This document shows positions 6,938-22,587 of a stretch of DNA of 22,587 bases, one piece after another. Under the pieces are notes generated by a model. It had not been told where the DNA came from. It saw nothing but the letters and a program-made list of their open reading frames with translations, and did no database searches. This stretch comes from a virus, in IMG/VR virus record IMGVR_UViG_3300021365_002183, positions 1 to 22,587 of that record, one strand, 5' to 3'. The translations under genes were made by a program, and so were the position numbers. How positions within the stretch are numbered: position 1 is the first letter of the stretch; every line of letters begins with the position of its first letter.

Positions 6938-7361
6938 ATCTATCCAAACAATAGGTGTCGGTAGGTTACTACCTGGTATGATACTTACCTTTAATTATTC
7001 TGAACAAGGTGTTAAGGATCCTAGACCTATCTTACTTTATTTAAATACTAATAAAGAAACTAAAAATATAGAGGGGTTGAATATGAATTACCTCAATGCC
7101 ACTAAACTAAAAAAGTTATTTACTGTTGCTGATTTTAAGAAAACAGAATTAGATGAGGTAGAAAATTTAATTAGTTTAAAAGAAAATTACTTTAGATTAC
7201 AGATTGCTAATCCAAAGAAAAGAAGTGCTATGACACCTAAAAGATTTTATAGTGATGTAATATCAGCCGATAAATACTTTAAGCAATCATATAGGTCATA
7301 TAAACTTACTAAGTTGACTTCACTAAAGGTTACACAAATAAACATGGAGTTTATCAAGTGA
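6903..7361 (+). CDS. Conserved phage protein with TTG start, unknown function
   Basis: This 152-residue protein shows a pattern near the N-terminus, IGVGRLLPGMILTFNYS followed by DPRPILLYLN and EGLNMNYL. It recalls a family of myophage proteins with the layout G-x-hydrophobic-PG-x-hydrophobic-x-F-x-Y ... DxxPL ... GLNL-x-YL. That family is widespread in T4-like phages but has no function I can assign. The C-terminal half is basic (SAMTPKRFYSD, KQSYRSYKLTKLTS). The start is a TTG with a good GGAG site. It overlaps the upstream zinc-ribbon gene by 35 bases and the downstream GT2 gene by GTGA, so a phage core gene is embedded between glycosyltransferases. Confidence 0.65.
   Translation: MANRYNNKRIVKSIQTIGVGRLLPGMILTFNYSEQGVKDPRPILLYLNTNKETKNIEGLNMNYLNATKLKKLFTVADFKKTELDEVENLISLKENYFRLQIANPKKRSAMTPKRFYSDVISADKYFKQSYRSYKLTKLTSLKVTQINMEFIK
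7346..7360 (+). promoter_or_regulatory. Ribosome site supporting a GTG start
   Basis: GGAG at 7346-7349 lies 8 bases before GTG at 7358-7360. The GTG overlaps the upstream TGA as GTGA and gives the standard GT2 N-terminus. Confidence 0.65.
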
Positions 7362-7990
7362 AAATTAGTTATTCTATGTTGGTTCATAACGAAGATGAAA
7401 CTCTTGAAAAGTTACTACAAACTTTATTATCATATAAACAACCTCAAGATGAGATTGTGGTTCTTGATGACTATTCTGATAATGAAAAGACGAAAGCTAT
7501 ATTAGATTATTATTCATCTACTACAGATATAAAGTTAGACCAAAGAAATTTATTGAAAGATTTTGCTAGTCAAAAAAATTATCTTAAAGGTATGTGTTCT
7601 GGTGATTATAGTTTTAACTTAGATGCTGATGAAATGATATCTCATTGGTTCATGAAAGATATACACGATATACTTGAGGGTAATGAAGTTGATTTAATCT
7701 TTGTTCCAAGAATAAATACTGTAGAAGGTATAACGGAAGAACATTGTAGGATGTATGGGTATCAAATAAATGAAAAAGGATGGATAAACTATCCTGATTG
7801 GCAAGGTCGTATCTTTCGTAACCGACCAAACATTCGTTGGGAAAAACCTGTTCATGAACAACTAACGGGTTTTCAGACCTATGCTCATTTACCACAGGAA
7901 CAAAAGTATTCTATCACCCATCCTAAAACGATAGAAAGACAAGTAGAACAAAATAAATTTTACAATGAAGAAATAACTGCAAAACTTTAA
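7358..7990 (+). CDS. GT2-family glycosyltransferase (GT-A fold)
   Basis: This 210-residue protein starts MKISYSMLVHNEDETL, the classic GT2 first strand with a HNE acceptor/nucleotide loop. It has D37/D38 (VVLDDYSD) for the nucleotide and the metal-binding DAD at 89-91 (FNLDADEM). Segments RMYGYQINEKGW, WQGRIFRN and KPVHEQLTGF fit family members related to WaaE/KdtX-like beta-glycosyltransferases, which transfer glucose or similar hexoses onto LPS core; the precise sugar is unknown. There is no membrane anchor. The gene opens the unbroken glycan cassette and is translated from a GTG start. Confidence 0.82.
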   Translation: MKISYSMLVHNEDETLEKLLQTLLSYKQPQDEIVVLDDYSDNEKTKAILDYYSSTTDIKLDQRNLLKDFASQKNYLKGMCSGDYSFNLDADEMISHWFMKDIHDILEGNEVDLIFVPRINTVEGITEEHCRMYGYQINEKGWINYPDWQGRIFRNRPNIRWEKPVHEQLTGFQTYAHLPQEQKYSITHPKTIERQVEQNKFYNEEITAKL

Positions 7991-7999
7991 GGAATTTAA

Positions 8000-8899
8000 A
8001 TGAAGATATTAGTAGCAGGTGGTGCTGGATTTGTCGGTACTAACTTAATAAAAAGATTATTAAAAGACAAACATGAGGTTCATGCTGTAGATAACTACTC
8101 TACTGGTTTTAAATCCAATCATCAAGATGGTTGTACTTATCACGAGTATGATTTAGCAAGTGAGCATATGTTAGGTATTTATGTAGATCACAGTACATAT
8201 CCTTATTGGAGAGAATTTGAATTTGATTTGATAGTTAATGTAGCTGCTTTGGCTAGAATACAACCATCTTTAAAAAATCCATTAAAGACAATAAGAAATA
8301 ATTTCAATAGTGCTTTACATACATTAGAGTGGGCAAGAGATAATGAAACACCTGTAGTTTTTGCTGGTTCAAGTACACTTCATCACGGGTTATGGGGTAG
8401 TCCTTATGCTTGGTCAAAATATGGTGGAGAACAGCTTTGTGAATTATATAATAAAGTGTATAACTTACCAACTGCTATTTGTAGATTTTATAATGTTTAT
8501 GGCGAACATCAATTAGAAGATGGAGCGTATGCCACGGTTGTGGGTATTTTTGAAAAACAATATCGTGAAAACAAACCACTAACTGTTACCGGAGATGGGA
8601 AACAACGAAGAGATTTTACTCACATAGATGATATTGTGGATGGTATAGTTCGATGTGGTACTGGTTTGTTAGGAGATAATCCTATATCAAGTGGTCAAGC
8701 CTATGAATTAGGTAGAGGTACGAACTTTTCAATTAATGAGTTAGCAGATATGTTTGGTAAAGATTATCCTAAAGAATACATACCAGCAAGAAACGGTGAG
8801 TATCCATTCACTTTGGCTGATTATACAAAAGCAAATCAAGAACTTGGTTGGCATCCAACTAAAGATATTAAAAATTATATAAGTGGAGTTATAAGTTAA
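8000..8899 (+). CDS. NAD(P)-dependent sugar epimerase/dehydratase (extended SDR, GalE-like)
   Basis: This 299-residue extended short-chain dehydrogenase has the NAD-binding GGAGFVG at 7-13 and an acidic D31 after strand 2 (VDNYSTG), which favours NAD over NADP. GSS at the substrate serine is followed by Y136/K140 (YAWSK). CRFYNVYGEHQ and RRDFTHIDDIVDG are typical of UDP- or GDP-sugar 4-epimerases and related enzymes. Length is a little shorter than GalE (about 330-340). It would interconvert or dehydrate a nucleotide-sugar; the substrate cannot be read from sequence. The ATG follows a TAAGGAATTT ribosome site. The next gene begins at the base after its stop, suggesting it works with the ColD-like enzyme. 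Confidence 0.85.
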   Translation: MKILVAGGAGFVGTNLIKRLLKDKHEVHAVDNYSTGFKSNHQDGCTYHEYDLASEHMLGIYVDHSTYPYWREFEFDLIVNVAALARIQPSLKNPLKTIRNNFNSALHTLEWARDNETPVVFAGSSTLHHGLWGSPYAWSKYGGEQLCELYNKVYNLPTAICRFYNVYGEHQLEDGAYATVVGIFEKQYRENKPLTVTGDGKQRRDFTHIDDIVDGIVRCGTGLLGDNPISSGQAYELGRGTNFSINELADMFGKDYPKEYIPARNGEYPFTLADYTKANQELGWHPTKDIKNYISGVIS

Positions 8900-10060
8900 A
8901 TGGACAAAATTTATTTAGTAAAAGATACAATAGATAAGAATGATATAGATAAACTAATTGATTGGTTAAAAACATATCCAAGACTAACTAAAGGACCTGT
9001 AACATTAGAACTAGAAGAGAAATACTCTAATTGGTTAGGGAGAAAGTATTCTGTATATGTCAACTCAGGCTCTTCTGCTAATCTAATAATGTTATCAGCA
9101 TTACAGCAAGGTAAATATTTAAAGAACAATAAGGTGGTAGTACCATCTGTTGCTTGGGCTACTGATTTAGCACCAGTCATGCAGTTGGGATTAAAACCAA
9201 TTTTGTGTGACTCTAATAAGAGAGATTTGTCAGTTGATTTGGTACATTTAGAAAAGATATTTAAAGAGGAATCTCCATCAACTCTAATGTTTGTTTCAGT
9301 TTTAGGTTTAGTTCCTGAAATGGGTAAGGTTGTAGAATTATGTGAAAAGTATGATGTTATATTACTAGAGGATACTTGTGAATCAATGGGGTGTAAGTAC
9401 AAACAAGTTAAGTTAGGAACATTTGGTAAGATGTCAAGTTTTTCAACTTATTTTGGTCATCATATTTCTACAATTGAAGGTGGGTTTGTTTCAACTGATG
9501 ATAAAGATTTATATGATATATTAATATCAATAAGAGCTCATGGATGGGATAGGGATTTAGATACTGAAAAACAAATTGAGTTACAACGAGATTGGGATGT
9601 TTCTACTTTTAATGCACTCTATACTTTTTATTATCAAGGTTTTAATGTCAGAGCTACAGATTTACAGGCATACATAGGTTTAAGTCAAATCGATAAGCTT
9701 GATGGTTGGGGTTTGAAAAGAGAATATAATTATTTAACATATCAAAAATTAGTCAAAAATAATTATTGGAAACCAAGCACAGAACTAAGTGATTTTAATT
9801 CTAACTTTGCTTATCCTGTAATACATCCTAACAGAGACAAAATAGTCAAAGAGTTGGAAAAAAATGGTGTTGAGGTTAGACCTATGATATGTGGCTCAAT
9901 GGGAACTCAACCATTTTATGTAAAAGAATATGGTAAATTAGAGCTACCTAATGTTACAGAAATTGATAGGTATGGTTTTTATGTACCAAATAATCCACAT
10001 ATAACCGATGACGAAATAGTTTTTATTTCTAACATAATTAATGGTCAAATAAATGACTAA
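8900..10060 (+). CDS. ColD-like PLP-dependent nucleotide-sugar 3-dehydratase (DegT/AHBA fold, His for Lys)
   Basis: This 386-residue protein has the DegT/DnrJ/EryC1 fold: phosphate-binding NSGSSANL (55-62), the PLP-ring aspartate D158 in LEDTCESMG, and the EGG-x-V after the active site. At the place where sugar aminotransferases carry the Schiff-base lysine it reads YFGHHISTIEGG, with H187 at that position. His replacing Lys is the mark of ColD and RfbH-type 3-dehydratases, which use free PLP or PMP to remove the C3 hydroxyl. Length matches E. coli ColD (about 388), whose catalytic His is residue 188. It would make a 4-keto-3,6-dideoxy sugar from a 4-keto-6-deoxy sugar. The gmd gene in the same cassette could supply GDP-4-keto-6-deoxymannose, but a CDP or dTDP substrate is possible. 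Confidence 0.82.
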   Translation: MDKIYLVKDTIDKNDIDKLIDWLKTYPRLTKGPVTLELEEKYSNWLGRKYSVYVNSGSSANLIMLSALQQGKYLKNNKVVVPSVAWATDLAPVMQLGLKPILCDSNKRDLSVDLVHLEKIFKEESPSTLMFVSVLGLVPEMGKVVELCEKYDVILLEDTCESMGCKYKQVKLGTFGKMSSFSTYFGHHISTIEGGFVSTDDKDLYDILISIRAHGWDRDLDTEKQIELQRDWDVSTFNALYTFYYQGFNVRATDLQAYIGLSQIDKLDGWGLKREYNYLTYQKLVKNNYWKPSTELSDFNSNFAYPVIHPNRDKIVKELEKNGVEVRPMICGSMGTQPFYVKEYGKLELPNVTEIDRYGFYVPNNPHITDDEIVFISNIINGQIND

Positions 10061-10565
10061 AAAATTTACAGATAGGAAAATTATTAATGGTGTTTTTGAT
10101 GGAGTTAAATTAAATCAACCAAGTTCTTATCAAGATTATCGAGGATATTACTATACGATAAATGATACTGAAGATAACGATGTTGAGTATGTAAAAGATA
10201 AGTTAAGCACTTCATCAAAAAATGTCTTACGCGGAATACATGGTGATTACAAAAGCACAAAATTAGTAACTTGTGTTCATGGAGAGGTCTATTGTGTTAT
10301 TGTTGATAATAGAAAAAATTCTGATACTCATATGAAATGGGCTTGGGAAATACTTAGTGTACACAACAAAAATATTTTAGTATTACCACCTGGCGTAGGA
10401 TTAAGTTATCTTATAACTAGTGAAAGTGCTAATATCTTTTATAAATGGGCTTATCCAGGTGGCTATCCCGATGTGGATGATCAATTTACATTGAAATGGA
10501 ACGATAAAAGTCTAAAAATCTTTTGGCCTATCAAAGAGCCAATATTACAACCGAGAGATTTATGA
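10053..10565 (+). CDS. RmlC-like nucleotide-sugar 3,5-epimerase (cupin)
   Basis: This 170-residue protein follows the RmlC layout: DYRGYYY near residues 28-34 (matching D-x-RG-x-F), VLRGIHGD with the catalytic-base candidate H63, and KLVTCVHGEVYCVIVDNR (70-87) forming the cupin strands. LPPGVGLSYL is followed by a Tyr candidate at Y130 or Y134 and the end DQFTLKWNDKSLKIFWP. RmlC proteins epimerise C3 and/or C5 of 4-keto-6-deoxy sugars. RGIHG in place of RGLHYQ suggests a divergent, possibly single-carbon epimerase. It overlaps the ColD-like gene by 8 bases and its stop forms ATGA with the transketolase gene, so the enzymes are probably made together. Confidence 0.82.
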   Translation: MTKKFTDRKIINGVFDGVKLNQPSSYQDYRGYYYTINDTEDNDVEYVKDKLSTSSKNVLRGIHGDYKSTKLVTCVHGEVYCVIVDNRKNSDTHMKWAWEILSVHNKNILVLPPGVGLSYLITSESANIFYKWAYPGGYPDVDDQFTLKWNDKSLKIFWPIKEPILQPRDL

Positions 10566-11314
10566 TTAAAATATCTAAAGAAATGAGAAGACTCATAGTA
10601 AGTGCAGCATATCATGCTAATCATGGACATATACCAAGTGCTTTATCCATAGTTGAAATTATGAAAAGTTTTAATCAAGTTGAAACTGAAGATGATGTTA
10701 TGATTTTAAGTAAAGGGCATGGATGCCTAGCTTTATATTCTTTATTAGTTATCCAAGGTCATATTAATGAAAAAGAATTATTGACTTTTGGTAAAAAAGG
10801 TAGTAGATTAGGTGGTCATCCAGATAGAAATAAAGTTGATAAAATTTATGCTTCAACTGGTTCACTTGGTCATGGACTTCCAATTGCTATTGGAACTGCA
10901 ATTGCAAAAAAAATAATGAAAAAAAACGGAAAGGTATTTTGTGTTATTGGGGATGGTGAAATAAACGAGGGTTCAATATGGGAATCTATTTTGATAGCTG
11001 TTGATAATAAATTAGATAATTTAATTTGTGTAGTAGACTATAATAAATCACAAATAAGGTCTTTAGAACCAAAACTAAATATTCAAATGTTTGAGTCATT
11101 TGGATGTGATGTAATTGAAATTGATGGGCACGATGTAGACTCTTTAGTACAGGCTATGAAATTAAGTAGTGTAAAAAAACCAAAAGTTATTTTAGCCAAT
11201 ACTGTTAAGGGGAAGGGTATAAAAGAAATAGAAGATAATATGTTTGCTTGGCACCACCGAGCACCAACTGAAGAAGAATATAAAAAATTCTGTGAGGAAA
11301 TTTATGAGAGCTGA
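10562..11314 (+). CDS. Transketolase, N-terminal (TPP-binding) half
   Basis: The start is set at ATG 10562 (ATGA overlap), giving 250 residues; the frame is open upstream but that only shadows the epimerase gene. The protein has the TPP pyrophosphate-binding domain: SKGHGCLALY (50-59), GGHPDR (84-89), TGSLGHGLPIAIG (99-111), and the GDG...N thiamin motif at G130-D131-G132 and N161. The end HHRAPTEEEY is typical of the N half. Transketolases move two-carbon ketol units between sugar phosphates; here the enzyme is split into two subunits, as in many bacteria and archaea. Its place between a sugar epimerase and an SDR suggests nucleotide-sugar tailoring rather than the pentose phosphate pathway; that is inference. 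Confidence 0.88.
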   Translation: MIKISKEMRRLIVSAAYHANHGHIPSALSIVEIMKSFNQVETEDDVMILSKGHGCLALYSLLVIQGHINEKELLTFGKKGSRLGGHPDRNKVDKIYASTGSLGHGLPIAIGTAIAKKIMKKNGKVFCVIGDGEINEGSIWESILIAVDNKLDNLICVVDYNKSQIRSLEPKLNIQMFESFGCDVIEIDGHDVDSLVQAMKLSSVKKPKVILANTVKGKGIKEIEDNMFAWHHRAPTEEEYKKFCEEIYES

Positions 11315-12176
11315 GTTTGCTAAATTATGTCATGAAGTAGTTCAATCTGATTTAAAATCAGTAGTAATGATAGGTGATATAAGTCATTTTCTTTTAAGAG
11401 AAACAGAACAAATTGCACCTGACAGATTTTATAATATAGGTATATGTGAGCAATCAATGGTTGGGATGGCTAGTGGTATGGCTATTGAGGGTATGCGACC
11501 TATTATTCATACTATTTCTCCCTTTCTTGTGGAAAGAGCATTTGAACAGATAAAAAATGACATAGGGTATCAGAATACAGAGGTGACAATAGTGACGGTT
11601 GGTGGGACTTATGACTACGCTGATTTGGGTTGTACACATCATTGTTATGGTGATATTGCTATGATGAGATTAATTCCAAATATGCAAGTGTTTGAACCAT
11701 CTAGTCCAGTTGAATTTAGAAATTTATTTAAAGATACTTGGGGAAATGGCCATCCAAAATATTTTAGATTGACAAAAGAACAACATTCACAGCAGATAGA
11801 TGTTACGCCTGGAGATTTAGAGGTAGTTAGAGAATCTAAAGATGGTAGATATGCTTTTGTCACAGGACATATTTTAGATGATGTATTAGAGTCACCGAAC
11901 ATTGGAGTGATTTATGTTCATACTTTATCACATATCAATTCGGAATCTAAAAAGTATGTAGGTAAATTGTTAAGAGAATCTAAAAAAGTATATTCTGTTG
12001 AAAATCATTTTAAAGTAGGTGGTTTGGGTGATTTTATAAGTGATACATTTAATGTTAATGTACATCGAATTGGTATGGAAAGAAAATTTCTTACGAGTTA
12101 TGGTTCTTATGATGATCTTAGAAGAGAAAGCGCTATGGATAAAAATTCTATATTAGAACAATTGAGGTGGATATAA
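11304..12176 (+). CDS. Transketolase, C-terminal (pyrimidine-binding) half
   Basis: The start at ATG 11304 has GAGGAA at 11294-11299 as ribosome site and overlaps the N-half gene by 11 bases; the product is 290 residues. It holds the pyrimidine-binding domain with the catalytic glutamate E49 in NIGICEQSMVGMASG, and HTISPFLVERAFEQIKND and GDIAMMRLIPNMQVFEPSS. The C-terminal domain includes VYSVENHFKVGGLG. Together with the preceding gene it forms an alpha2beta2-type split transketolase with active sites at the subunit interface. Combined length, about 540 residues, is shorter than single-chain transketolases (about 660) and equals the usual split form. No frameshift is needed to explain the two frames. 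Confidence 0.88.
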   Translation: MRAEFAKLCHEVVQSDLKSVVMIGDISHFLLRETEQIAPDRFYNIGICEQSMVGMASGMAIEGMRPIIHTISPFLVERAFEQIKNDIGYQNTEVTIVTVGGTYDYADLGCTHHCYGDIAMMRLIPNMQVFEPSSPVEFRNLFKDTWGNGHPKYFRLTKEQHSQQIDVTPGDLEVVRESKDGRYAFVTGHILDDVLESPNIGVIYVHTLSHINSESKKYVGKLLRESKKVYSVENHFKVGGLGDFISDTFNVNVHRIGMERKFLTSYGSYDDLRRESAMDKNSILEQLRWI

Positions 12177-13210
12177 TGAACAAATATTTAAAAGAATCAA
12201 TGGATAAAATAAGTAAAGTTATTGGAGCGCCACTTGATGAGTTTAAAGGAAAGACAATTTTAATTACCGGAGCCAATGGTCTGATAGGTGGTTTCTTAAC
12301 AGATTTTTTTGTTTATTTAAATGAAGAATTAAACTTTAATTGTAAGTTGGTTTTAACCAGTCTGAGCTCAGATCCAAAAAGATTAGAAGATGTGATTCAT
12401 AAAAAATATATTACTTACTATTCTAGAGATTTAACCAGTGATGCTTGGTTTTTTGATAAAGTAGATTTTTGTTTTTATTGCGCTGGATATGCTCAACCAG
12501 GTAAATTTTTAGCTGATGCTGATAAAACGTATTCTTTAAATGTTGATGCTATGAGAAGAGTATTTGACTCAGTTTTATCTAATAATCCAACGGCTAAAGG
12601 ATTATTCATAAGTAGTTCTGAGGTTTATGCTTTAAACAAAACTGATAAGTCACATCATGAATCGGATGATTTGAGTGTTTACTTATGGCATAAAAGGGTA
12701 ACATATATTCTTGGTAAAATAGCTGGAGAATACAATATTCAATTATTAAGTGACAAAGGATACAATGCTAGGTCTGCGAGAGTTTCTCTATGTTATGGAC
12801 CAGGACATCTTATGAGTGATTCTCGTGTTATGAGTGAGTTAACTCAAAAAGGAATTGAACAAGAAACTATAAATTTATTTGATGATGGATCTTCATATAG
12901 AAAATATCAACACATTTCAGATTGTTGTATAATGTTGATAAATATTATTTTAAGAGGTAAATGGCCGGTTTATAATGTGGGTGGTAAGGAAGAAATAACT
13001 ATATATGATATGGCAAAAATAATTGGTGATAAATTTAAAAAACGAGTTGTGAGGGGTAAGGTTAATAATGATGTAGCCGACTCAGCTCCTAAAAAAGTTT
13101 CTATATCATTAGATAGATACGAAGAAGAATTTGGTAATTTTGATTTTACATCATTTGAAGATGGTATGGAAAATTACCTAAATTGGTTTTCAGAAGAACA
13201 TAAAAAATAG
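12176..13210 (+). CDS. NAD(P)-dependent sugar epimerase/dehydratase (extended SDR), second copy type
   Basis: ATG 12176 is preferred over an in-frame GTG at 12167, because it makes a TAATG junction and GAGG at 12164-12167 is well spaced; the product is 344 residues. It has the NAD-binding GANGLIG at 32-38, CAGYAQPGKF in the substrate region, SSSEVYA, and the catalytic pair Y177/K181 (YILGK), followed by SARVSLCYGPG and YQHISDCC. It differs clearly from the SDR at 8000-8899, so it is not a recent duplicate. CYGPG and the HISD segment are typical of UDP-glucuronate decarboxylase/dTDP-glucose dehydratase relatives. Coupled to the split transketolase, it probably acts on the same sugar. Confidence 0.83.
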   Translation: MNKYLKESMDKISKVIGAPLDEFKGKTILITGANGLIGGFLTDFFVYLNEELNFNCKLVLTSLSSDPKRLEDVIHKKYITYYSRDLTSDAWFFDKVDFCFYCAGYAQPGKFLADADKTYSLNVDAMRRVFDSVLSNNPTAKGLFISSSEVYALNKTDKSHHESDDLSVYLWHKRVTYILGKIAGEYNIQLLSDKGYNARSARVSLCYGPGHLMSDSRVMSELTQKGIEQETINLFDDGSSYRKYQHISDCCIMLINIILRGKWPVYNVGGKEEITIYDMAKIIGDKFKKRVVRGKVNNDVADSAPKKVSISLDRYEEEFGNFDFTSFEDGMENYLNWFSEEHKK

Positions 13211-13217: not shown

Positions 13218-13526
13218 ATGAGATATTGTTTTGATATAGATGGTACGATATGTTCCACTAATTGTGAGTATAAAGATTCTGTTCCATATCAAGAGGTTAT
13301 AGATTGGATAAATAAAAAATATGATGAAGGTCATAGTATTACTCTCTTCACATCTAGAGGAACATCATCTGGTGTGGATTGGTTTGAGTTTACTGAAAAA
13401 CAAGTAAACGATTGGGGTGTTAAATATCATGAATTAAAATTAGGTAAACCAGCTTATGATTTATTCATAGACGATAGAGCTATCAATAATGAAAAGTGGT
13501 ACAATCAAGAGGGTATAAGTATATGA
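13218..13526 (+). CDS. Small HAD-like phosphatase
   Basis: This 102-residue minimal HAD protein has the nucleophile motif FDIDGT (D6 and D8), motif II Thr/Ser in LFTSRG (43-48), the lysine of motif III in GKPAYD (K77) and the acidic motif IV pair D85/D86 in FIDDRA. No cap domain is present. Such proteins occur in capsule and LPS clusters, where they are thought to remove a phosphate from sugar phosphates or act on a biosynthetic intermediate. AGGA at 13209-13212 is its ribosome site. Its stop forms ATGA with the ATP-grasp gene, hinting at a shared step. Confidence 0.8.
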   Translation: MRYCFDIDGTICSTNCEYKDSVPYQEVIDWINKKYDEGHSITLFTSRGTSSGVDWFEFTEKQVNDWGVKYHELKLGKPAYDLFIDDRAINNEKWYNQEGISI

Positions 13527-15279: not shown

Positions 15280-16067
15280 AAAAAAATGTTTTATTTTGGA
15301 TAGGTGTTAAAAGTAAAAGTGATTTGATGCTTAAAAAACATGGTCAATTTGAGTACTTAGAAATATCAAAATTATCATGGAAATATTGGTGTGATAAAAA
15401 TAATGTTATATTTTATGAATACAAAGAATCATCAGAATCCGATACAGGTAAACATAGAGTTACTTGGACTAGGTGGTTTGATGTATTTAATCAATTAAAC
15501 CAATCCAATATACAATATAATAAAATAGCTGTAATTGATGGTCATAACATAGTTAGATGGGATACCCCTAACTTTTTTAATTTAACTAATGGCAAGATAA
15601 CCGCTTTTAGATCATTAGAAAATTTAAAATGGCTTTATCAAGCTGTTCAAGGATATAAGAAATTATTTAATAATTACAAATTTGATACAACAAAATACAT
15701 AAGCACCGGTTTTCAAATTTTTGATAAAGATCATGAAAAGTTTTTATTGGAATTAAAGGATTTTTACTACGAAAATAATCAAAAGATATTAGAATTACAA
15801 AAAACTGTACATAGAGGAACAGATCAAACGCCTTATAACTATTTACTTCAAATTAAAAATATTAAAGTAGATTCATTACCAGCTCCATATTTGTTAACTC
15901 ACTTGAACAGATTTGATTGGTTTAAATATAACTGGCAATTAAATGAAGATAAAACTCCTTACTTTATAAAATATGGGTATATTTGGGCTTTTAGTGGATT
16001 TGATAGAACTTTGAGAAATGATTTGATGAAACAGGTGTGGGATTCGGTAAAACATAAATATGAGTAA
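15276..16067 (+). CDS. GT-A glycosyltransferase-like protein, paralogue 1, degenerate DXD
   Basis: This 263-residue protein is a clear paralogue of the next gene. Shared pieces are LSWKYWCD-K (34-41), the FDVFNQL-type helix, a hydrophobic strand IAVIDGHNI (84-92), a TGFQIF acceptor segment, RGTDQTPYN and the closing WAFSGFDRTLRND. Where the paralogue has the metal-binding DAD, this protein reads D88-G89-H90, so the second aspartate of DXD is replaced by His. It may use a different metal geometry, a different donor, or be an inactive partner of the second protein. It is GT8-like in general layout. The start is GTG. Confidence 0.68.
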   Translation: MKKNVLFWIGVKSKSDLMLKKHGQFEYLEISKLSWKYWCDKNNVIFYEYKESSESDTGKHRVTWTRWFDVFNQLNQSNIQYNKIAVIDGHNIVRWDTPNFFNLTNGKITAFRSLENLKWLYQAVQGYKKLFNNYKFDTTKYISTGFQIFDKDHEKFLLELKDFYYENNQKILELQKTVHRGTDQTPYNYLLQIKNIKVDSLPAPYLLTHLNRFDWFKYNWQLNEDKTPYFIKYGYIWAFSGFDRTLRNDLMKQVWDSVKHKYE

Positions 16068-16800
16068 AAATATAGTTTTTATAGTTAATTTATCAGAAGA
16101 TAAAAAACCAGGAAGGGATAAGCCTTACAACTACTCCGTTAAAAGTTGGAAATATTGGTGTGATATTAATGATTGTGAATTGTTCGTTTTAACAAATCGT
16201 ATATATCCAGAGGATTATATGAACGCTAATTGGCATAAACTATTTGTATTTCAATTGCTGGATAGTAGTGGTGTTGATTATAATCAAGTTTTAATTGTTG
16301 ATGCTGATACAATAATACATCCTGATGCTCCTGATATTTTTAAGCTAACGGATGATAAATTTTGTGTTGTGCGTAGTTACGGTAGTTATGATTGGATGTG
16401 TAGAAGTATAGAAAATTATAAAAAACACATGTTTCCTGATATTAATGTACCTTATTTTGAATATTTTAATTCGGGTGTAATATTATGTAACAAAAAACAT
16501 AAAAAATTTTATGAAAAAATAATAAATTTTTACTTGACTAATAGAGAAAATATAGTTAAATTACAAGAAACATATCAAGTTGGAACGGATCAACCTATAT
16601 TAAATTTTTTTGTTAAGCAAGAAAAGATTGAGTATAAACAACTTGACTACGAGTGGAATATGCAAGATATGAATAGATTTGAGATTTTAGATGATGAGTT
16701 GACTTTTACTAAACTTGGTTGGATTTATCATTTCAATGGTATACCAGATGATTTAAGAAATCATATGATGAAAAAAACACAAGAAGAGTTAGATTTATGA
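16060..16800 (+). CDS. GT-A glycosyltransferase (GT8-like), paralogue 2, intact DXD
   Basis: This 246-residue protein has an intact metal motif D81-A82-D83 in LIVDADTIIHPDAP, followed by a YFNSGVILCNK acceptor segment, GTDQPILN and the C-terminal YHFNGIPDDLRNH. These are features of GT8-like retaining enzymes that use UDP-sugars with Mn2+. It aligns along its length with the preceding gene (KSWKYWCD versus LSWKYWCD; GTDQP versus GTDQT), so the pair arose by duplication. The start overlaps the upstream gene by 8 bases and the stop forms ATGA with the next GT2 gene. The sugar is not predictable. Confidence 0.78.
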   Translation: MSKNIVFIVNLSEDKKPGRDKPYNYSVKSWKYWCDINDCELFVLTNRIYPEDYMNANWHKLFVFQLLDSSGVDYNQVLIVDADTIIHPDAPDIFKLTDDKFCVVRSYGSYDWMCRSIENYKKHMFPDINVPYFEYFNSGVILCNKKHKKFYEKIINFYLTNRENIVKLQETYQVGTDQPILNFFVKQEKIEYKQLDYEWNMQDMNRFEILDDELTFTKLGWIYHFNGIPDDLRNHMMKKTQEELDL

Positions 16801-17657
16801 AAATATCAGTTTTAATACCAACTAGACAAAGAACAGATGTTTTATATCGAGGGGTGGATTCGGTTATAAATCAAGCACATGATATATCAAATTTAGAATT
16901 AATATTTAGATTTGATGAAGACGATGATTATGCTTTAAGTGAGTGTATGAAATACTATCAAGTAGAACCTACAAATACTATTGATAAATCAGCTGATTTT
17001 AAATGGGGCAATTCAGATTTTAAAGTTATAGAAACCTTTTCTAAGAAACATAGTATATCTATGAGGTTTATCGTTGGTAAACGGCATGGATATGTTCTTT
17101 TAAATAGATACTATGATGAGATGTGTTTTATGTCTACTGGCGAATATCTTTTAATATGGACAGATGATATGATTTTATTAGATAATGACAGATATGATGG
17201 GTGGGATACTCTTGTTAATGAAGGAAAGGATCAAATCTATTTGTTTACATTTGATTGGCAAGATGGTTATCCAAGAATAGTACCTAGAAAATTTTATGAA
17301 TTAAATAATAGATTATCTCCTAATGTTTTAGATGATAGATATTGGATAGAAGTTATGAAAACCGTAGACATCCATGTTGGTTTGGGTTGGAAAGCAAATC
17401 ACCATTGTCAATGGGATAACAATGAGCCTTTAATTGACGGTAAAGACATAACCGCATCTGAGGGTAGAGGTAGCTTTATAAAACACAGAAGGAGTACTGC
17501 TGGCAACGACTGGCAATTCTTTGATATTGAAGATTTAAATAGGATTAAACACTATTTGGATGAAAACCCAAATCATACAAAAACAAGTCAAAAACATAAT
17601 CCTGAAAACTTTTTCGGACAAGATTTAAACAAACATCCAGATTGTTGGGAGATTTAA
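16797..17657 (+). CDS. GT2-like glycosyltransferase
   Basis: This 286-residue protein starts MKISVLIPTRQRTDVLYRGV, the standard GT2 first strand and loop. It continues with IFRFDEDDDYAL (about 36-47) for nucleotide contact and LLIWTDDMILL, which holds a TDD metal motif. The segment WKANHHCQWDNNEPLIDG and the C-terminal HNPENFFGQDL are not recognised from a named subfamily. There are no membrane helices, so it is probably cytoplasmic. ATGA coupled to paralogue 2 upstream, 1 base before the cupin gene downstream. Donor and acceptor are unknown. Confidence 0.75.
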   Translation: MKISVLIPTRQRTDVLYRGVDSVINQAHDISNLELIFRFDEDDDYALSECMKYYQVEPTNTIDKSADFKWGNSDFKVIETFSKKHSISMRFIVGKRHGYVLLNRYYDEMCFMSTGEYLLIWTDDMILLDNDRYDGWDTLVNEGKDQIYLFTFDWQDGYPRIVPRKFYELNNRLSPNVLDDRYWIEVMKTVDIHVGLGWKANHHCQWDNNEPLIDGKDITASEGRGSFIKHRRSTAGNDWQFFDIEDLNRIKHYLDENPNHTKTSQKHNPENFFGQDLNKHPDCWEI

Positions 17658-17658
17658 G

Positions 17659-18090
17659 ATGAAATTTTTATATTCAAAAGTAGAACCAAATAAACTATTG
17701 CATATTATACACAAGGTTGATGAGTTTTACACAATAGAAGATGGGCATAGAAGGGATATAGTTGGTGATGATTCATTCATTCAATTATCTTCTATGAACA
17801 TGGAGAAGGGACATACATTCAGACCTCATCAACACATTTGGAAATCGGGTGAGAAGGAAGTAATTGCACAAGAATCTTGGGTTGTTATAAAGGGTAGTGT
17901 TGAATGTCATTTCTATGACACGGATGGTGAGTTATTAGGTAAGCCTGTGCTTAATGTTGGTGATTGTTCCATAACACTAGGTGGTGGTCATAATTACTTA
18001 ATATTAGAACATGATACATTAGTTTATGAATACAAAACAGGACCATATAAGGGACAGAAATTAGATAAGGTGTTTTTAGATGAGTTATAA
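17659..18090 (+). CDS. Cupin-fold protein of glycan clusters
   Basis: This 143-residue single-domain cupin has the metal-site segment RPHQHIWKSGEKEVIAQE (about 55-72), in which the two His and the Glu fit cupin motif 1. It is followed by WVVIKGSVECHFYDTDG and the second-motif region GGGHNYLIL with a further His. Small cupins of this type are found in O-antigen and capsule clusters, often beside sugar-modifying enzymes; they may isomerise or epimerise a sugar or bind one, and no reaction is assigned. GGGAG at 17647-17651 is its ribosome site. The FkbM gene overlaps its end by 11 bases. Confidence 0.72.
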   Translation: MKFLYSKVEPNKLLHIIHKVDEFYTIEDGHRRDIVGDDSFIQLSSMNMEKGHTFRPHQHIWKSGEKEVIAQESWVVIKGSVECHFYDTDGELLGKPVLNVGDCSITLGGGHNYLILEHDTLVYEYKTGPYKGQKLDKVFLDEL

Positions 18091-18766
18091 TACAGAAAAA
18101 GATATAGATAAAAGTTATTTTAGAGATAAAATAGATAAAGAGAATCCAACAATATTTGATGTTGGAACTTTTGATGGAAATGATTGTTTAGATTTTTTAA
18201 ATATATTTGATAAACCAAAAATATATGCCTTTGAGGCTGATAAAAGGTCTGTTGATATATTCAAAAAACATGTCGGTAGTGCGAAAATTAATCTAATACA
18301 AACTGCTTTATCTGATGTCAATGGTGAGATAGAGTTTTATCAAAGTGAAAGTGAAACTCGTAGACATACGAGGTATGATTATGAAAAGACATGGAGTGCT
18401 TCTGGTTCAGTTAAAAAACCAGATAATCATTTAAATGTATTTCCTGATGTTCAGTTTGAGTTGAGTAAAGTTAAGTCAACTAAATTAGATACATGGATGT
18501 TAGGTAAAAATATTGATTTGATTGATATAATGTGGGTAGATGTAAATGGTGGTGAAGAAGAGTTTTTATCAGGTGGGTTAGAAACCATAAGTAATAGTGT
18601 TCATTACCTTTATATAGAGTTTAACGGTGTCGGCAATAAAAAACTTTATGAGAATTGTTACACTACAGAAGATATAAAAGATATTTTGCCTAATTTTAAG
18701 GAATTAGGTGTTTATAATTTTATGGGTAATTTTGGAAATATATTATTAAGGAATACTACTTTATGA
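18080..18766 (+). CDS. FkbM-family SAM-dependent methyltransferase
   Basis: This 228-residue protein has motif I IFDVGTFDGNDCLDF (25-39), an acidic residue in YAFEADKRS, ALSDVNGEIEFY as the typical FkbM strand-turn, and the late IDIMWVDVNGGEEEFLSG, equivalent to the usual lidxlKiDvEGxE block. In this family the late motif commonly has KxDxEG; here it reads WVDVNGG. FkbM proteins O-methylate sugars or other hydroxyls, and in glycan clusters they often methylate terminal sugars. It overlaps the cupin gene by 11 bases and ends in ATGA with the half-length DegT gene. Confidence 0.82.
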   Translation: MSYNTEKDIDKSYFRDKIDKENPTIFDVGTFDGNDCLDFLNIFDKPKIYAFEADKRSVDIFKKHVGSAKINLIQTALSDVNGEIEFYQSESETRRHTRYDYEKTWSASGSVKKPDNHLNVFPDVQFELSKVKSTKLDTWMLGKNIDLIDIMWVDVNGGEEEFLSGGLETISNSVHYLYIEFNGVGNKKLYENCYTTEDIKDILPNFKELGVYNFMGNFGNILLRNTTL

Positions 18767-19353
18767 GTTGGACATCAGTAGGTGATTTTGAAACAGATGT
18801 TTCACAATATTTTGGAGCAAGTTACGGTATTGCTATAGATAGTTGCACACATGGCATTGAGTTGTGCTTACGATATCTTGATGTGGATGAATTAATTATA
18901 CCAAAGAGGACTTATATATCTATACCATTTCTTTCTAATAAACTTAATATACCATTAGTGTGGAAGGATGAAAATTGGGAAGATTACTATGAAATAGGTA
19001 ATACAGGAGTTTATGATGCTGCTGTTCTTTGGAAAGAAAATAGTTATATACCAAACACATTTATGTGCTTAAGTTTTCAATTTCAAAAACATTTGAGTCT
19101 TGGTAGGGGTGGTATGATATTAACAGATAATAAAAACGCTTATAATAAACTAAAAAAAATGTCTTATGATGGTAGAGAACCTGATGTGCCTTGGAGAGAA
19201 CAAAATATAGATACAATAGGGTATCATTATTATATGACTCCCGAAACAGCTCAACTAGGACTTGATAAATTACCAAGCGCCATTAAAATCAAACCGAGAC
19301 AATGGGTAGTTGAAGATTGGCCAGATTTAACTAAAATGGAGATATTTAAATGA
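18763..19353 (+). CDS. Half-length DegT/DnrJ-type PLP protein with the active-site lysine
   Basis: This protein has 196 residues against about 370-400 for the family. It retains the large PLP domain: IDSCTHGIEL (25-34) at the phosphate site, D85 in YDAAVLW at the pyridine-nitrogen position, and K109 in FQFQKHLSLGRGGMI at the Schiff-base position. The usual C-terminal small domain is missing. The next gene follows at once by ATGA, so no lost downstream part can be recovered in another frame. The protein still ends in a plausible MTPETAQLGLDKL helix. It may be a compact aminotransferase, act with a partner subunit, or be decayed. An amino-sugar product would fit the deacetylase and ATP-grasp genes nearby. 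Confidence 0.78.
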   Translation: MSWTSVGDFETDVSQYFGASYGIAIDSCTHGIELCLRYLDVDELIIPKRTYISIPFLSNKLNIPLVWKDENWEDYYEIGNTGVYDAAVLWKENSYIPNTFMCLSFQFQKHLSLGRGGMILTDNKNAYNKLKKMSYDGREPDVPWREQNIDTIGYHYYMTPETAQLGLDKLPSAIKIKPRQWVVEDWPDLTKMEIFK

Positions 19354-20321
19354 AAAGAAAAGCTTTTATAACGGGTATTGCTGGACAAGATGGTAGTTAT
19401 CTTGCTGAATTATTATTAGAAAAAGACTATGATGTATATGGAATAGTAAGAAGAAATTCTACTCCAGAAAATCAACACAATAGAATAGATCATATTGAAT
19501 CTGATTTAAATTTAGAGTATGGAGATTTATTAGATGTAAGTTCATTAGAGAGAATGATTAAAGTTATACAACCTAATGAAATATACAATATAGCTGCTCA
19601 AAGTCATGTTAGGATTAGCTTTGATATTCCACAATTTACTGTACAAACAAATGCTCTTGGTTTATTAAATATGCTAGAAGGTTGGAGAAATAACTGTCCT
19701 ACTGCTAGATTTTATCAAGCATCTTCTTCAGAGATGTTTGGTCGTACTGTAGATGAGGATGGTTATCAGAGAGAAACTACAAAGATGGAGCCGACAAGCA
19801 CTTACGGTTGTACAAAGGTGTTTGGGTATAATATGGTTAAACATTATCGACATGCTTATGGTTTATTTGGTGCTAATGGTATTTTATTTAATCACGAATC
19901 TCCAAGACGAGGTGCTAATTTTGTTACCAATAAGGTTGTCAAGGCAGCTGTTAGAATTAAATTGGGAATGCAAGATAAATTAGTTTTAGGTAACATGGAT
20001 GCTTATCGTGATTGGGGACATTCAAAGGATTATGTTAAGGCTATGCACATGATTATAAATCATAATGTAGCAGACGATTTTGTCTGTGCTACTGGAGTTA
20101 CAAATTCAGTTCGTGATATGTGTAAATATGTTTTTGATAAATTGGATTTAAATTATAAAGATTATGTAACACAAAATCCAAAATATATGAGAGCTGAAGA
20201 ACTAAAGTATCTAAAGGGTGATTCTACTAAGATTAGAAAAACTCTTGGATGGAAGCCAAAATATACATTTGAAACCTTGATGGATGATATGATTGAGCAT
20301 TGGAGAAAATATTATGAATAA
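19350..20321 (+). CDS. gmd: GDP-mannose 4,6-dehydratase
   Basis: This 323-residue protein has all the Gmd hallmarks: NADP-binding GIAGQDGSYLAE at 9-20, VRRNST, the AQSHV substrate loop, SSSEMFG, catalytic Y152/K156 (YGCTK), FNHESPRRG and the AYRDWGHSKDYV block. It is slightly shorter than bacterial Gmd (about 340-370), missing some C-terminal residues. It converts GDP-mannose to GDP-4-keto-6-deoxymannose, the branch point for GDP-fucose, GDP-rhamnose, perosamine and colitose. No Fcl/WcaG (GDP-fucose synthase) is recognised in the window, but a ColD-like enzyme is present. Host GDP-mannose would be the feedstock. ATGA coupled upstream; overlaps the next gene by 8 bases. Confidence 0.92.
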   Translation: MKRKAFITGIAGQDGSYLAELLLEKDYDVYGIVRRNSTPENQHNRIDHIESDLNLEYGDLLDVSSLERMIKVIQPNEIYNIAAQSHVRISFDIPQFTVQTNALGLLNMLEGWRNNCPTARFYQASSSEMFGRTVDEDGYQRETTKMEPTSTYGCTKVFGYNMVKHYRHAYGLFGANGILFNHESPRRGANFVTNKVVKAAVRIKLGMQDKLVLGNMDAYRDWGHSKDYVKAMHMIINHNVADDFVCATGVTNSVRDMCKYVFDKLDLNYKDYVTQNPKYMRAEELKYLKGDSTKIRKTLGWKPKYTFETLMDDMIEHWRKYYE

Positions 20322-20985
20322 ATTTACTGGCCATGAAATTAGTTTATTTCAAAATTTTATATGTACTAAGGAATTTAGATTAAACTTGTTAAAAAAAGTT
20401 TTACCTGTTTGGGCTGATGTTATTAATCCATATCCAGTTATAATCAATTACGATACTGATATCTATGCTGATGAAGTCCGTTCTTTATATGAAAAGTATA
20501 TAGAGAACTTACATTTTCAACAAGATTTAAATCGTGATTGGGGTGCACCTATTTTAGATTTTTTTTCAATAACAGATTCACCTTATATTCTATATCTATG
20601 TGAAGATTATCAATTTTCTGATGAACTTACTCGTGATAAATTTTCTGAAATATTTGATGAATATAAAGAAAATAATTGTGGGCATTTGATGTTGACAAGA
20701 GTTTGGAAATATGCTGAAGAGCATTGGCATAAAAATTCTAAGAGGGGTAAAAACTTGTGGTTGTTTCATTCATCGGAGTCTCCTTACTGGCAATTTGCAG
20801 CTGCTGGTTTGTTTGAACGGGAGGTGTATAAACAAGCGGTTGGTGAAACCATAGGTTCTGGTCCTGGTATGATAGGTATAGATAAACTTGAACAATCGGG
20901 TTTAACACAAAGAGATATGATGTGTTGTTGTTTAACTGATATACTGATGACACATGAACAACCAAGTGGAACTAGTGAGAGGTAA
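20314..20985 (+). CDS. Putative GT-A-like protein, unknown function
   Basis: The ATG at 20314 is chosen because GGAG at 20302-20305 is well spaced; a longer frame from a TTG at 20293 only shadows gmd. This 223-residue protein has IINYDTDIYADEV (44-56), where D47-T48-D49 resembles a nucleotide or DXD element. ILYLCEDYQF (92-101) recalls the hydrophobic-strand plus acidic motif of GT-A enzymes. A SGPGMIGIDKLEQSG segment lies near the C-terminus. No named family is recognised, and glycosyltransferase function is inferred from these elements and from the neighbours. It is separated from the next gene by 3 bases. Confidence 0.5.
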   Translation: MNKFTGHEISLFQNFICTKEFRLNLLKKVLPVWADVINPYPVIINYDTDIYADEVRSLYEKYIENLHFQQDLNRDWGAPILDFFSITDSPYILYLCEDYQFSDELTRDKFSEIFDEYKENNCGHLMLTRVWKYAEEHWHKNSKRGKNLWLFHSSESPYWQFAAAGLFEREVYKQAVGETIGSGPGMIGIDKLEQSGLTQRDMMCCCLTDILMTHEQPSGTSER

Positions 20986-20988
20986 TAC

Positions 20989-21549
20989 ATGGAATACATT
21001 TTAAGAACTGAAGATGAATATATAGAATACGGTGGTGTTTCAATAAATAAAGCTGCTGTTGAATTTATAGAAAGTATATTGGATAATGGTAAAACTATAT
21101 TGGAATTAGGAAGTGGTCCAGGTTCAACTGTAGGTTTGGGTAAAATTTATAATTTATATTCCGTTGAAAATCAACCCGAATGGTTTGATAGGTATTCAAA
21201 ATATACAACCTATATAAATTGTAGAAGTAAATCATATGATGAAACTTATACAAAACCCAATGGTTTTTTAAACGATAAAGCTTGGTATCATCCAGACGAT
21301 TTGTTTTCAAATTTACCAAATAGTTATGATTTAATTTTAGTTGATGGACCAGGTGGTTTTTCACATGGTTGGGGACGAGGTGGTTTTTATAAACACATTG
21401 ATAAATTTAATACTGATGTTCCAATTATCTTTGATGATATAAATAGAGATGAAGAAAGTGAATTGATGAAAAGGGTATCGGAATATATTGACAGACCTTA
21501 CAAATATTTAGAAACGGATTTTGAAAACGAAATTGGCTATATATTATGA
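20989..21549 (+). CDS. Class I SAM-dependent methyltransferase-like protein
   Basis: This 186-residue protein has motif I ILELGSGPGSTVGL (37-50), an acidic position after strand 2 in YSVENQ (about 55-60), the later DLILVDGPGGF strand typical of the class I fold, and VPIIFDDINRDE. The LVDGPGG segment matches small methyltransferases of surface-glycan clusters. Length is compact, with no extra domain. It could methylate a sugar or another acceptor. It lies between two GT-A-like proteins and ends in ATGA with the following gene, so it probably belongs to the same assembly step. Confidence 0.68.
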   Translation: MEYILRTEDEYIEYGGVSINKAAVEFIESILDNGKTILELGSGPGSTVGLGKIYNLYSVENQPEWFDRYSKYTTYINCRSKSYDETYTKPNGFLNDKAWYHPDDLFSNLPNSYDLILVDGPGGFSHGWGRGGFYKHIDKFNTDVPIIFDDINRDEESELMKRVSEYIDRPYKYLETDFENEIGYIL

Positions 21550-22547
21550 CTAAATTGACCAGAAGGTATGTAATAGGAACTCATGTAATGTGGTTTGAAA
21601 TCGAAATGTATAATGATTTCATAAACGGAATGGTGAATTTATTAGAAACCGTAGAGAATAAAGAGAATGTAACTATTGATTTGTGTTTTAATATGCTACA
21701 ACACTTTGAAAAAGTTGATACCAACATGATTAAGAAACATGAGTTGTATATAAAATTTAAAAAAGGTGTTGCTACATTAGAACAAATGGGATTTTGGGTT
21801 AACTATGAAGTAAAAGATAAAGAAGATGAATTTTATTTTCATACTGATTATAGAAGAGATTTGAATTACAACTATTGTAAGAAAGTAGATTATGTAATGT
21901 GGGGTGAAACCGACAGTTTCTTTCCAAGAGAAGCATTTCAAGTGATAGAAACATTGGCTAACTACACGGATGAACAAGGAATACATAAATATCTACTGAG
22001 TTTTTCAGATAGAAAAATGTGGGATGCTAGTTGGGATCCATTAGTTCATGTTGATTATCGAGATGTTAAGTTTATAGATGATGATAACGGACATCTATAT
22101 ACTAATCAAGCTAAATCACAATTATCTATAGAAGAGATGAATAAAATAAATGATAGAGCCGAAGATTTTGATTTTTCATATATAACTAACCCAAAAATAA
22201 GTGGAGCTTGTTTGGTATTATCAACGGACTTAATTAAGTTTGGTGTAAACATACCACCATGTATGTTATATAATGACGATGAGGGCTTATCTATAATGTC
22301 TCAGAAGTTATTAGGGCAAAACTATTTACAGTTTGTATGTCAAAATATATTACATGTTCACGCTAGGAGACATCCACAAAAGAGAATGTATGTTAAGGAT
22401 GAAGATAATCCACATTCTTTTCTGAATAAAAAGAATAATAATTTTCAAAAGTTTTTAAAAATGTCAAAAGAAAATATACAGACTCTTGCGACTGGTAATG
22501 GAAAATTTAAAGAGTATAACGATTTACAACAAATATTGGAGATATGA
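21546..22547 (+). CDS. Putative GT-A-like glycosyltransferase, unknown family
   Basis: This 333-residue protein begins with a strand-like RRYVIGTHVMWFEIEM and holds VDYVMWGETDSFFPREAF (114-131), where E121-T122-D123 could serve as a metal/nucleotide motif following a hydrophobic strand. GACLVLSTDLIKFG later resembles the acceptor-side strand of GT2-like enzymes, and MLYNDDEGLSIM supplies an acidic pair suitable for a base. HVHARRHPQKRM follows near the end. The overall order fits a GT-A transferase, but I do not recognise the family. ATGA overlaps on both sides tie it to the methyltransferase and to the second Gmd-like gene. Confidence 0.5.
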   Translation: MTKLTRRYVIGTHVMWFEIEMYNDFINGMVNLLETVENKENVTIDLCFNMLQHFEKVDTNMIKKHELYIKFKKGVATLEQMGFWVNYEVKDKEDEFYFHTDYRRDLNYNYCKKVDYVMWGETDSFFPREAFQVIETLANYTDEQGIHKYLLSFSDRKMWDASWDPLVHVDYRDVKFIDDDNGHLYTNQAKSQLSIEEMNKINDRAEDFDFSYITNPKISGACLVLSTDLIKFGVNIPPCMLYNDDEGLSIMSQKLLGQNYLQFVCQNILHVHARRHPQKRMYVKDEDNPHSFLNKKNNNFQKFLKMSKENIQTLATGNGKFKEYNDLQQILEI

Positions 22548-22587
22548 TGAAAAAAGCATTAATAACTGGAATTAGTGGACAAGATGG
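22544..22587 (+). CDS. 5' end of a second Gmd-like nucleotide-sugar dehydratase (partial)
   Basis: The frame reads MMKKALITGISGQDG and is cut by the window edge. The GxxGQDG NADP-binding motif is typical of GDP-mannose 4,6-dehydratases and close relatives, and matches the start of the gene at 19350. Two adjacent in-frame ATGs (22544, 22547) exist; the first forms the usual ATGA overlap. Whether it is a full Gmd or a related reductase/dehydratase cannot be told from 14 codons. Confidence 0.7.
   Translation, partial: MMKKALITGISGQD

Follow-up and report, generated by a model that had tools for sequence, protein, structure and literature searches.

We analysed a glycan gene cluster carried by IMG/VR record IMGVR_UViG_3300021365_002183, which comes from a marine T4-like phage and whose entire length of 22,587 bases is hereafter called the window. 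As judged from gene order and sequence identity, this cluster is one allele of a widespread cassette-type island in a fixed slot of T4-like phages, and comparison among relatives demonstrated fixed two-sided borders around largely different interiors. The lone oddity envisaged in the original prediction, an earlier description of the same DNA, thus becomes a member of a common family of loci. The predicted proteins also supported the view that the cluster is soluble and export-free, with no recognised exporter or priming enzyme. The explanation that accounts best for these observations, to which we give about an even chance, is that fixed core enzymes, together with exchangeable sugar cassettes, carry out a soluble glycosylation of a virion protein.

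A fixed slot with an exchangeable interior

The distribution of the locus was surveyed with the GT4a and GT4b proteins of the window as queries, which matched at least 600 and at least 599 stretches, respectively. For each query the 80 best matches were retained, giving 151 loci that derive from fewer contigs, as both queries matched the same contigs, and some of which end early. The order gp62, exonuclease, GT4a, GT4b, GT2L recurred in these loci, with gp62 recognised in 131, the exonuclease in 142, and GT2L in 108 of the 151. The left border of the island is exonuclease-GT4-GT4-GT2 and the right border a further GT2 gene (GT2R), and the GT4 genes at 3799-6521 are part of the same unit as the sugar cluster. 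The genes of the left border and its anchor in the window are as follows.

315..734, + strand: clamp loader gp62-like protein of the T4-like replication block (phrog_225, E 1.5e-17)
2066..2929, + strand: PD-(D/E)XK-type exonuclease, the left neighbour of the island (phrog_69, E 5.8e-28)
3799..5160, + strand: GT4a, retaining GT4 glycosyltransferase, fixed core enzyme (PF00534; AlphaFold predicted local distance difference test, pLDDT, 91.6)
5154..6521, + strand: GT4b, second retaining GT4, fixed core enzyme (PF00534; AlphaFold pLDDT 93.9)
6521..6937, + strand: CxxC-containing small left-border protein, no PHROG match, in 20/151 survey loci
6903..7361, + strand: small left-border protein, no PHROG match, in 17/151 survey loci, unmatched in annotated phages
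7358..7990, + strand: GT2L, left-border glycosyltransferase 2 (PF00535, E 8e-12)

The region downstream of the core was compared in 50 records, namely that of the window and 49 others; many of them are fragments, seven are at least 159 kb long, and two pairs are near-identical (G000/G001 and G004/G008). These gave 46 downstream sequences, as G000 was represented by G001 and as G022, G037, and G041 are short after the core. GT2R was recognised in 30 of the 46, weakly so (29-44% identity) in five of the 30 (G011, G012, G025, G029, and G032), and the 16 sequences without it were set aside. The two-border islands hold from 7 to 36 genes of at least 100 amino acids each, many with sugar pathways.

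Exchange of the interior was illustrated by G004 and G007, whose left flanks agree at 90.5% across 4.8 kb and whose right flanks agree at 92.4% across 2 kb, with GT2R proteins 96% identical. Their interiors of 21-23 kb, in contrast, share only short pieces at 66-80% identity, and 9 of the 27-28 genes are reciprocal matches at ≥40%. The G008 island, which equals that of G004 at 99.97% across the shared 17 kb, carries nonulosonate-type genes for NeuB, a UDP-GlcNAc 2-epimerase, and a cytidylyltransferase, while the G007 interior encodes a SPASM protein and a PIG-L deacetylase. In a Pfam tally of 150 genes drawn at random from 483 interior genes (a set that excludes G001, G004, G007, and the cultured Flavobacterium phage immuto), the leading families included Epimerase with 28 members, GT2 with 16, and DegT with 7.

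Continuation of the cluster beyond the contig edge

The contig ends inside a second gmd gene, so that the absence of export genes could not be demonstrated from the window alone. The cluster does continue in a near-identical record, IMGVR_UViG_3300028844_005431 (G001; 39,632 bp), which aligns across the full window at 97.7% and in which 20 of the 20 window island proteins are matched at 100% identity. There it runs ~14 kb further, to window-equivalent 36.3 kb, for a total block of ~30 kb. The first part of the extension comprises gmd, two Pfam-less genes, a DAO-type oxidoreductase, a GFO/IDH oxidoreductase, a carbamoyltransferase, and one unmatched gene; the second comprises a GT2, an SDR, a C-methyltransferase, two unassigned genes, a UDP-glucose-dehydrogenase-type enzyme, and the border GT2 (GT2R). 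Small phage genes follow, and then an HNH protein, a peptide deformylase, and UvdE, the last three named by eye. Up to the island end, the extension encodes no flippase, polymerase, or priming transferase, and no protein with two predicted membrane segments.

The identity between the window and G001 was 96-100% up to ~3.0 kb, 84-93% up to ~7.0 kb, where GT4a and GT4b lie, and 99.8-100% thereafter, and a similar pattern was found for G006. As a divergence of ~7-16% is restricted to the core GT4 region (~2800-7000), with 99-100% identity otherwise, these data suggested exchange of core alleles; the switch of core allele between the window and G001 could conceivably reflect a chimeric assembly of the window.

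Lack of export and priming families

Profile searches for six export and priming families over the 50 records found none of them. Wzx (PF01943) occurred in 0/50 records and in 13 of 14 control genomes, PF00953 in 0/50 and 12/14, Wzy_C (PF04932) in 0/50 and 9/14, GtrA (PF04138) in 0/50 and 7/14, ABC2_membrane (PF01061) in 0/50 and 14/14, and Bac_transf (PF02397) in 0/50 and 9/14. The Epimerase family (PF01370), searched in the same record set, was found in 41 of the 50. The 50 records thus hold neither the flippase, polymerase, and priming transferase that a Wzx/Wzy-type O-antigen or capsule locus has of its own, nor the family that marks a Gtr serotype-conversion cassette (GtrA) or an ABC-transporter-dependent polysaccharide locus (ABC2_membrane). 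A missing flippase and polymerase had been claimed from the window, which by itself was insufficient for the claim; the part that stands does so through G001 and the relatives, and the proposed look just past the edge, extended here to G001 and 48 further records, brought no such gene to light.

Membrane segments, predicted with one crude hydropathy rule for genes of at least 100 amino acids, gave the same picture. Two or more segments were predicted for 0 of 645 genes in the 30 two-border islands, and a single one for 14. In the rfb+wca control of Escherichia coli K-12, 6 of 30 genes reached at least two segments (wzx 9, wzy 6, wzxC 9, wcaD 8, wcaJ 5, and wzc 3).

The core GT4 pair

GT4a and GT4b both show the GT-B fold and the EX7E-type motif of GT4 enzymes. 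The motif, which we take to mean here what it means in other GT4 enzymes, was present in every full-length survey copy, 138 of 138 for GT4a and 137 of 137 for GT4b. The top Foldseek match of both models was a chlorella virus transferase, 3oy2 (1.6e-16 and 6.2e-17), and VIA Z values of ~32 were obtained against several GT4 enzymes, tied with bacterial GT4. As the structural Z-scores are tied, the acceptor is unreadable from the GT4 fold. The streptococcal protein transferases GtfA/GtfB, to which a link was considered, were not among the matches listed for either core enzyme, a result that excludes nothing.

The C-terminus of GT4b in the window is a low-confidence tail with two LPKLKK motifs. 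Two motifs of this type were present in 77 of 145 GT4b proteins vs 0 of 2,979 other survey ORFs (open reading frames), and the tail is possibly a docking peptide. A search for it in annotated phages gave no match, with the low-complexity filter on and the search accordingly weak.

Among 50,697 phage records searched by tblastn (E≤1e-5), GT4a was found only in immuto, Mel-JY01, RM378, and the uncultured phage LR756508, whereas the matches of GT4b were confined to Mel-JY01 and four records of immuto. The core pair occurs in phages of Flavobacterium and Microcystis, and remotely of Rhodothermus, and an acceptor that travels with the phage would suit such different hosts.

Promoter-like motif at island heads

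A promoter-like motif is located at the head of the island unit.

3334..3341, + strand: TATTTATA, promoter-like motif, 36 nt before a 67-amino-acid ORF, with consensus-type evidence only

The motif occurred in 54 of 346 intergenic leaders vs 0 of 346 in-gene controls, and in 82 of 111 distinct exonuclease-to-GT4a stretches vs 14 of 98 gp62-to-exonuclease stretches. Inside the islands its density was 0.10/kb, the background level, and within -50..+350 of the GT2R end it was found in 10 of 30 islands, at 0.83/kb. In six large genomes, TATTTATA lay upstream of 19 of 87 structural-set ORFs vs 0 of 57 replication-set ORFs, the structural set consisting of the annotated virion genes of immuto, some hypothetical genes in the same blocks, and their homologues. 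With immuto left out, the counts were 12/62 and 0/44 (Fisher p 0.001; the six genomes are related). The island head carries the motif in four of these six genomes (immuto, G033, G044, and G048). As TATTTATA was noticed while the T4 motif was being checked in immuto and in the survey leaders, the counts provide no independent test. These results suggested that TATTTATA perhaps serves as late promoter in these phages, where T4 uses TATAAATA. The T4 late motif TATAAATA itself was rejected as the island promoter for most of the loci, being present in 11 of 107 distinct leaders (G002 has one before GT4a).

Proposed function and alternatives

On the gene content, a glycan acceptor in the host cytoplasm is the best reading of the cluster. 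In the proposed mechanism, the cassette interior would make particular activated sugars and supply the transferases that finish the glycan. The fixed core, GT4a, GT4b, and GT2L on the left and GT2R on the right, would build or start the glycan, with the GT4 pair placing the first sugar or sugars on a soluble cytoplasmic acceptor, for which a virion protein is the likeliest candidate, and cassette transferases would then extend and decorate the glycan. Homologous exchange through the conserved borders would swap sugar types between phages. We infer from the genes the soluble acceptor, the virion as that acceptor, the sugar chemistry, the mechanism of exchange, and the benefit, which would lie in masking or altering the particle surface. 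A more specific version, held more tentatively and as yet the less probable of the two, is a serotype-like phage locus, in which the GT4 pair would start a capsid or tail glycan and border-exchanged cassettes of ~6-33 kb would give a lineage-specific coat sugar, mostly in uncultured marine T4-like phages. Such coat sugars might include nonulosonate-type, branched, or carbamoylated kinds, a part of the proposal that is just as tentative.

Several observations weigh against virion glycosylation. The reading is drawn from the genes, and for the core pair the fold searches pointed to GT4 enzymes in general, with tied scores. TATTTATA also occurs in 34 of 79 2-kb stretches before gp62, so it is not purely structural or late; at the island head, the variant TATAAATA alone is present in G002, and in G047 neither motif occurs within 75 nt. 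No epimerase-family gene was found in some islands (e.g., G040 and G042). Of the 272 ORFs of at least 100 amino acids in the 16 sequences in which GT2R was not recognised, three reach two predicted segments; two of these are on the opposite strand, and the third (G035) is a soluble DegT-type enzyme by eye. The control counts bear on the question as well, because 24 of the 30 E. coli rfb+wca genes, which resemble the islands in their O-antigen sugar pathways, are also below two predicted segments. The enzymes of lipid-linked glycans are often soluble, and the missing membrane proteins are therefore compatible with use of a host carrier and flippase.

This last point leads to the main rival, which we regard as possible though unlikely, namely that the phage enzymes remodel the host envelope. 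They would act on a host lipid-linked glycan, relying on a priming enzyme, flippase, polymerase, or ligase of the host, and the changed O-chain would exclude other phages. According to the accessible text of PMC7029224 and PMC7824862, glycan clusters are already known in T4-like marine phages, and such clusters of marine and jumbo phages, including those of pelagimyophages and cyanophages, are read there as modification of the host surface or O-chain. However, the six export and priming families were absent from the 50 records, the same core pair is present in phages whose hosts belong to different phyla, and the motif at the island head also marks structural genes; a surface glycan made late in a lytic cycle would, moreover, have little time to act.

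DNA had been named among the possible acceptors in the original prediction, and it is now disfavoured. Here the core pair would put a sugar on a modified base, and the unusual sugars of the cassette would protect against nucleases. The island does lie in the replication block beside the exonuclease, and virus-encoded DNA-glycosylating transferases are known (reference cited in the accessible text of PMC12619734). Nevertheless, the thymidylate-synthase/dCMP-hydroxymethylase family (PF00303), which supplies the hydroxymethylated base in T4-type DNA glucosylation, was found in 8 of the 50 records and absent in 42, and it was found in 2 and absent in 5 of the 7 records of at least 159 kb, many of the 50 being fragments; it was not found in G000 and G001, the records with the window island allele, both of which are fragments. 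Immuto is already annotated for 7-deazaguanine DNA modification, including DpdA, and the many tailoring and sugar genes per island would be easier to reconcile with a long glycan than with the tagging of a base, so that this explanation seems quite improbable.

A free oligosaccharide, secondary metabolite, or modified nucleotide directed against host defence or competitors would suit the ATP-grasp, carbamoyltransferase, split transketolase, and methyltransferase genes, since such enzymes also occur in secondary metabolism. A soluble product is among the options suggested for a second cyanophage cluster in the accessible part of PMC7824862, yet the window has five Pfam-matched transferases (3799, 5154, 7358, 16060, and 16797) and two more probable ones, and both borders hold conserved transferases, a set that argues for a glycan being assembled on an acceptor and leaves this option with very little likelihood.

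Were many of the clusters virion-glycosylation loci with exchangeable sugars, the surfaces of phage particles would have a diversity comparable to that of bacterial serotypes, and genome-based models of host range and receptors would be ignoring that layer of diversity. The question is directly testable, because phages in culture have these borders: immuto has both of them and Mel-JY01 the left one.

Gene content of the window allele

The genes of the window were assigned by Pfam (E≤0.001) and PHROGs profile searches, together with PDB matches. A run of consecutive glycan genes of at least 15 kb had been proposed, and indeed 20 complete + strand ORFs fill 7358-22547 without a break, with sugar-nucleotide, tailoring, glycosyltransferase, or family-less genes. 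The earlier calls of ColD-like, RmlC-like, split transketolase, ATP-grasp, half DegT, and Gmd proteins were all borne out by Pfam matches, and those of ColD and transketolase by PDB matches as well. The genes that follow GT2L are listed below.

8000..8899, + strand: NAD-dependent nucleotide-sugar epimerase/dehydratase (SDR/epimerase; PF01370, E 3e-40)
8900..10060, + strand: ColD-like 3-dehydratase, DegT fold (PF01041; best PDB match ColD 2gms, E 6e-53)
10053..10565, + strand: RmlC-like 3,5-epimerase (PF00908, E 4e-31)
10562..11314, + strand: split transketolase N-terminal subunit, thiamine diphosphate-binding (PF00456; best PDB match the split-chain transketolase 6yak, E 7e-41; GDG-x-N motif)
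11304..12176, + strand: split transketolase pyrimidine-binding subunit (PF02779, E 1e-25)
12167..13210, + strand: SDR epimerase/reductase, last of the three genes in the transketolase module (PF01370, E 2e-22)
13218..13526, + strand: small, possibly HAD-like phosphatase (phrog_1238, 'phosphoheptose isomerase', E 8e-30; HAD Pfam matches below the cut-off)
13523..14542, + strand: ATP-grasp ligase (PF15632, E 8e-16)
14539..15279, + strand: candidate NodB/CE4-like deacetylase (one weak profile match, 7bly, E 0.41)
15276..16067, + strand: likely glycosyltransferase by eye, relatives in 21/45 other downstream sequences
16060..16800, + strand: GT8 glycosyltransferase (PF01501, E 6e-8)
16797..17657, + strand: GT2 glycosyltransferase (PF00535, E 2e-5)
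17659..18090, + strand: cupin-like small protein (fold by eye), homologues in G002, G032, and others
18080..18766, + strand: FkbM-type methyltransferase (PF05050, E 9e-14)
18763..19353, + strand: half-length DegT-type protein, 196 amino acids (PF01041, E 2.5e-18)
19350..20321, + strand: GDP-mannose 4,6-dehydratase, Gmd (PF16363, E 1e-110)
20314..20985, + strand: glycosyltransferase-like by eye only, no family match at 0.001
20989..21549, + strand: methyltransferase-like by eye only, no family match
21546..22547, + strand: conserved island protein, probable glycosyltransferase by eye, relatives in 17/45 other downstream sequences
22544..22587, + strand: start of a second gmd, truncated at the contig end (complete in G001: PF16363, E 9e-124)

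At the Pfam threshold of 0.001, no match was obtained for the island ORFs starting at 15276, 17659, 20314, 20989, and 21546, nor for 14539-15279, which also had no single-sequence PDB match. The ColD-like protein combines the DegT fold with a His in place of the Lys that binds pyridoxal phosphate; this His, which presumably has the catalytic role it has in ColD, is aligned with the ColD position, where 3b8x has N. The transketolase-transketolase-SDR trio (10562-13210) recurs as a module with gmd nearby in G025 and G002, and a half-length DegT protein of ~200 amino acids recurs in phages (G032 64%, G027 34%, and immuto 31%). From the enzyme names, the window allele would convert GDP-mannose to GDP-4-keto-6-deoxymannose by Gmd, followed by loss of the 3-hydroxyl through the ColD-like enzyme, possible addition of a two-carbon branch by the split transketolase, and reduction by the SDR encoded next to it, to give a branched 3,6-dideoxy sugar. 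Other genes could add methyl, carbamoyl, and ATP-grasp decorations.

To the left of the island, the window carries the T4-like genes for clamp-loader gp62, a ClpP-like protease, the exonuclease, and a small phrog_1811 protein, with a DNA match to the RegA region in pelagiphages. The ClpP-like protease, of the head-maturation type, is sited within the replication block at 1464-2066, and the exonuclease homologues of immuto and Mel-JY01 carry the PD-(D/E)XK annotation. One further gene of this block was considered.

731-1075: small hydrophobic protein of 114 amino acids, replication block, after gp62, with two predicted segments (up to four in survey loci)

It was recognised in 15 of the 151 survey loci, and a homologue lies at 123 kb in G002. 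Its candidacy as a GtrA-like flippase was rejected, as it lacks Pfam support and GtrA was found in none of the 50 records. Larger relatives also contain gp20, gp23, sheath, and terminase homologues, and in G002 a baseplate-wedge homologue lies ~14 kb downstream of the sugar cluster, a proximity to virion genes that counts in favour of virion glycosylation.

Comparison with known systems

A cultured relative with both borders is Flavobacterium phage immuto (Immutovirus, NC_055915; host Flavobacterium sp. LMO8), which, like the island studied here, has GT4-GT4-GT2 on the left and a GT2 on the right around a cassette. Its GT4a (gp181) is 45% and its GT2R 47% identical to the corresponding proteins, and its GT4b is gp180; its cassette is short, with ~6 kb between the two GT2 genes, and its sugar genes differ from those of the window. 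Microcystis phage Mel-JY01 has the left part in common, with gp62, the exonuclease, a GT4 pair whose GT4a is annotated in two pieces, and further transferases; a deformylase comes next. A remote GT4 pair (L183 9165-11893; E 1.6e-59 and 1.7e-10) is also present in Rhodothermus phage RM378, where ribonucleotide reductase comes after it and no cassette lies alongside, and this pair is possibly a minimal or ancestral form. A bacterial source was sought in one genome scan, which gave 5 weak loci at 38-40% for the transketolase half.

The lipopolysaccharide ('LPS') clusters of T4-like cyanophages (P-SSM2, S-CAM7, and S-SKS1) likewise combine sugar-nucleotide and glycosyltransferase genes, as does the present cluster inside its T4-like genome, where gp62 and the exonuclease adjoin it. 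The clusters of S-CAM7 (10 genes) and S-SKS1 (19 genes) contain no gene with two predicted membrane segments, like the window island, so that the export-free state may be general. The S-CAM7 cluster (L284 14098-25627) directly precedes a tail-fibre gene, a position that also fits virion glycosylation. None of these three cyanophages is among the tblastn matches of GT4a and GT4b, and fixed two-sided borders with a swapped interior are undescribed for them in the literature accessible to us. The host recognition cluster of pelagimyophages, as presented in the accessible text of PMC7029224, is similarly hypervariable, carries glycosyltransferases, and belongs to marine T4-like phages, but it sits between VrlC and gp14, in a structural block with tail fibres, whereas the present island has the replication exonuclease on one side and the HNH/deformylase/UvdE region on the other. 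No publication on fixed-border glycan cassettes, a conserved GT4 pair, or a counted lack of exporters was found in literature that covers subscription papers poorly; within it, the cluster as a cassette in a fixed slot with two-sided borders, the GT4 pair, and the counted exporter lack were not found described and would be new here.

Bacterial O-antigen and capsule loci place a variable interior of sugar-pathway and transferase genes between conserved genes, as the phage island does. Enzyme types such as Gmd and RmlC are common to the island and the E. coli rfb/wca loci, and the island differs from the latter in having no Wzx, Wzy_C, priming-transferase, or ABC-2 exporter families. In mycobacteriophages, phage transferases have been linked to capsid and tail glycans (Freeman 2023, as cited in the accessible text of PMC12619734); these phages carry few transferases (two in Maravista), compared with the 7-36 genes of each two-border island described here.

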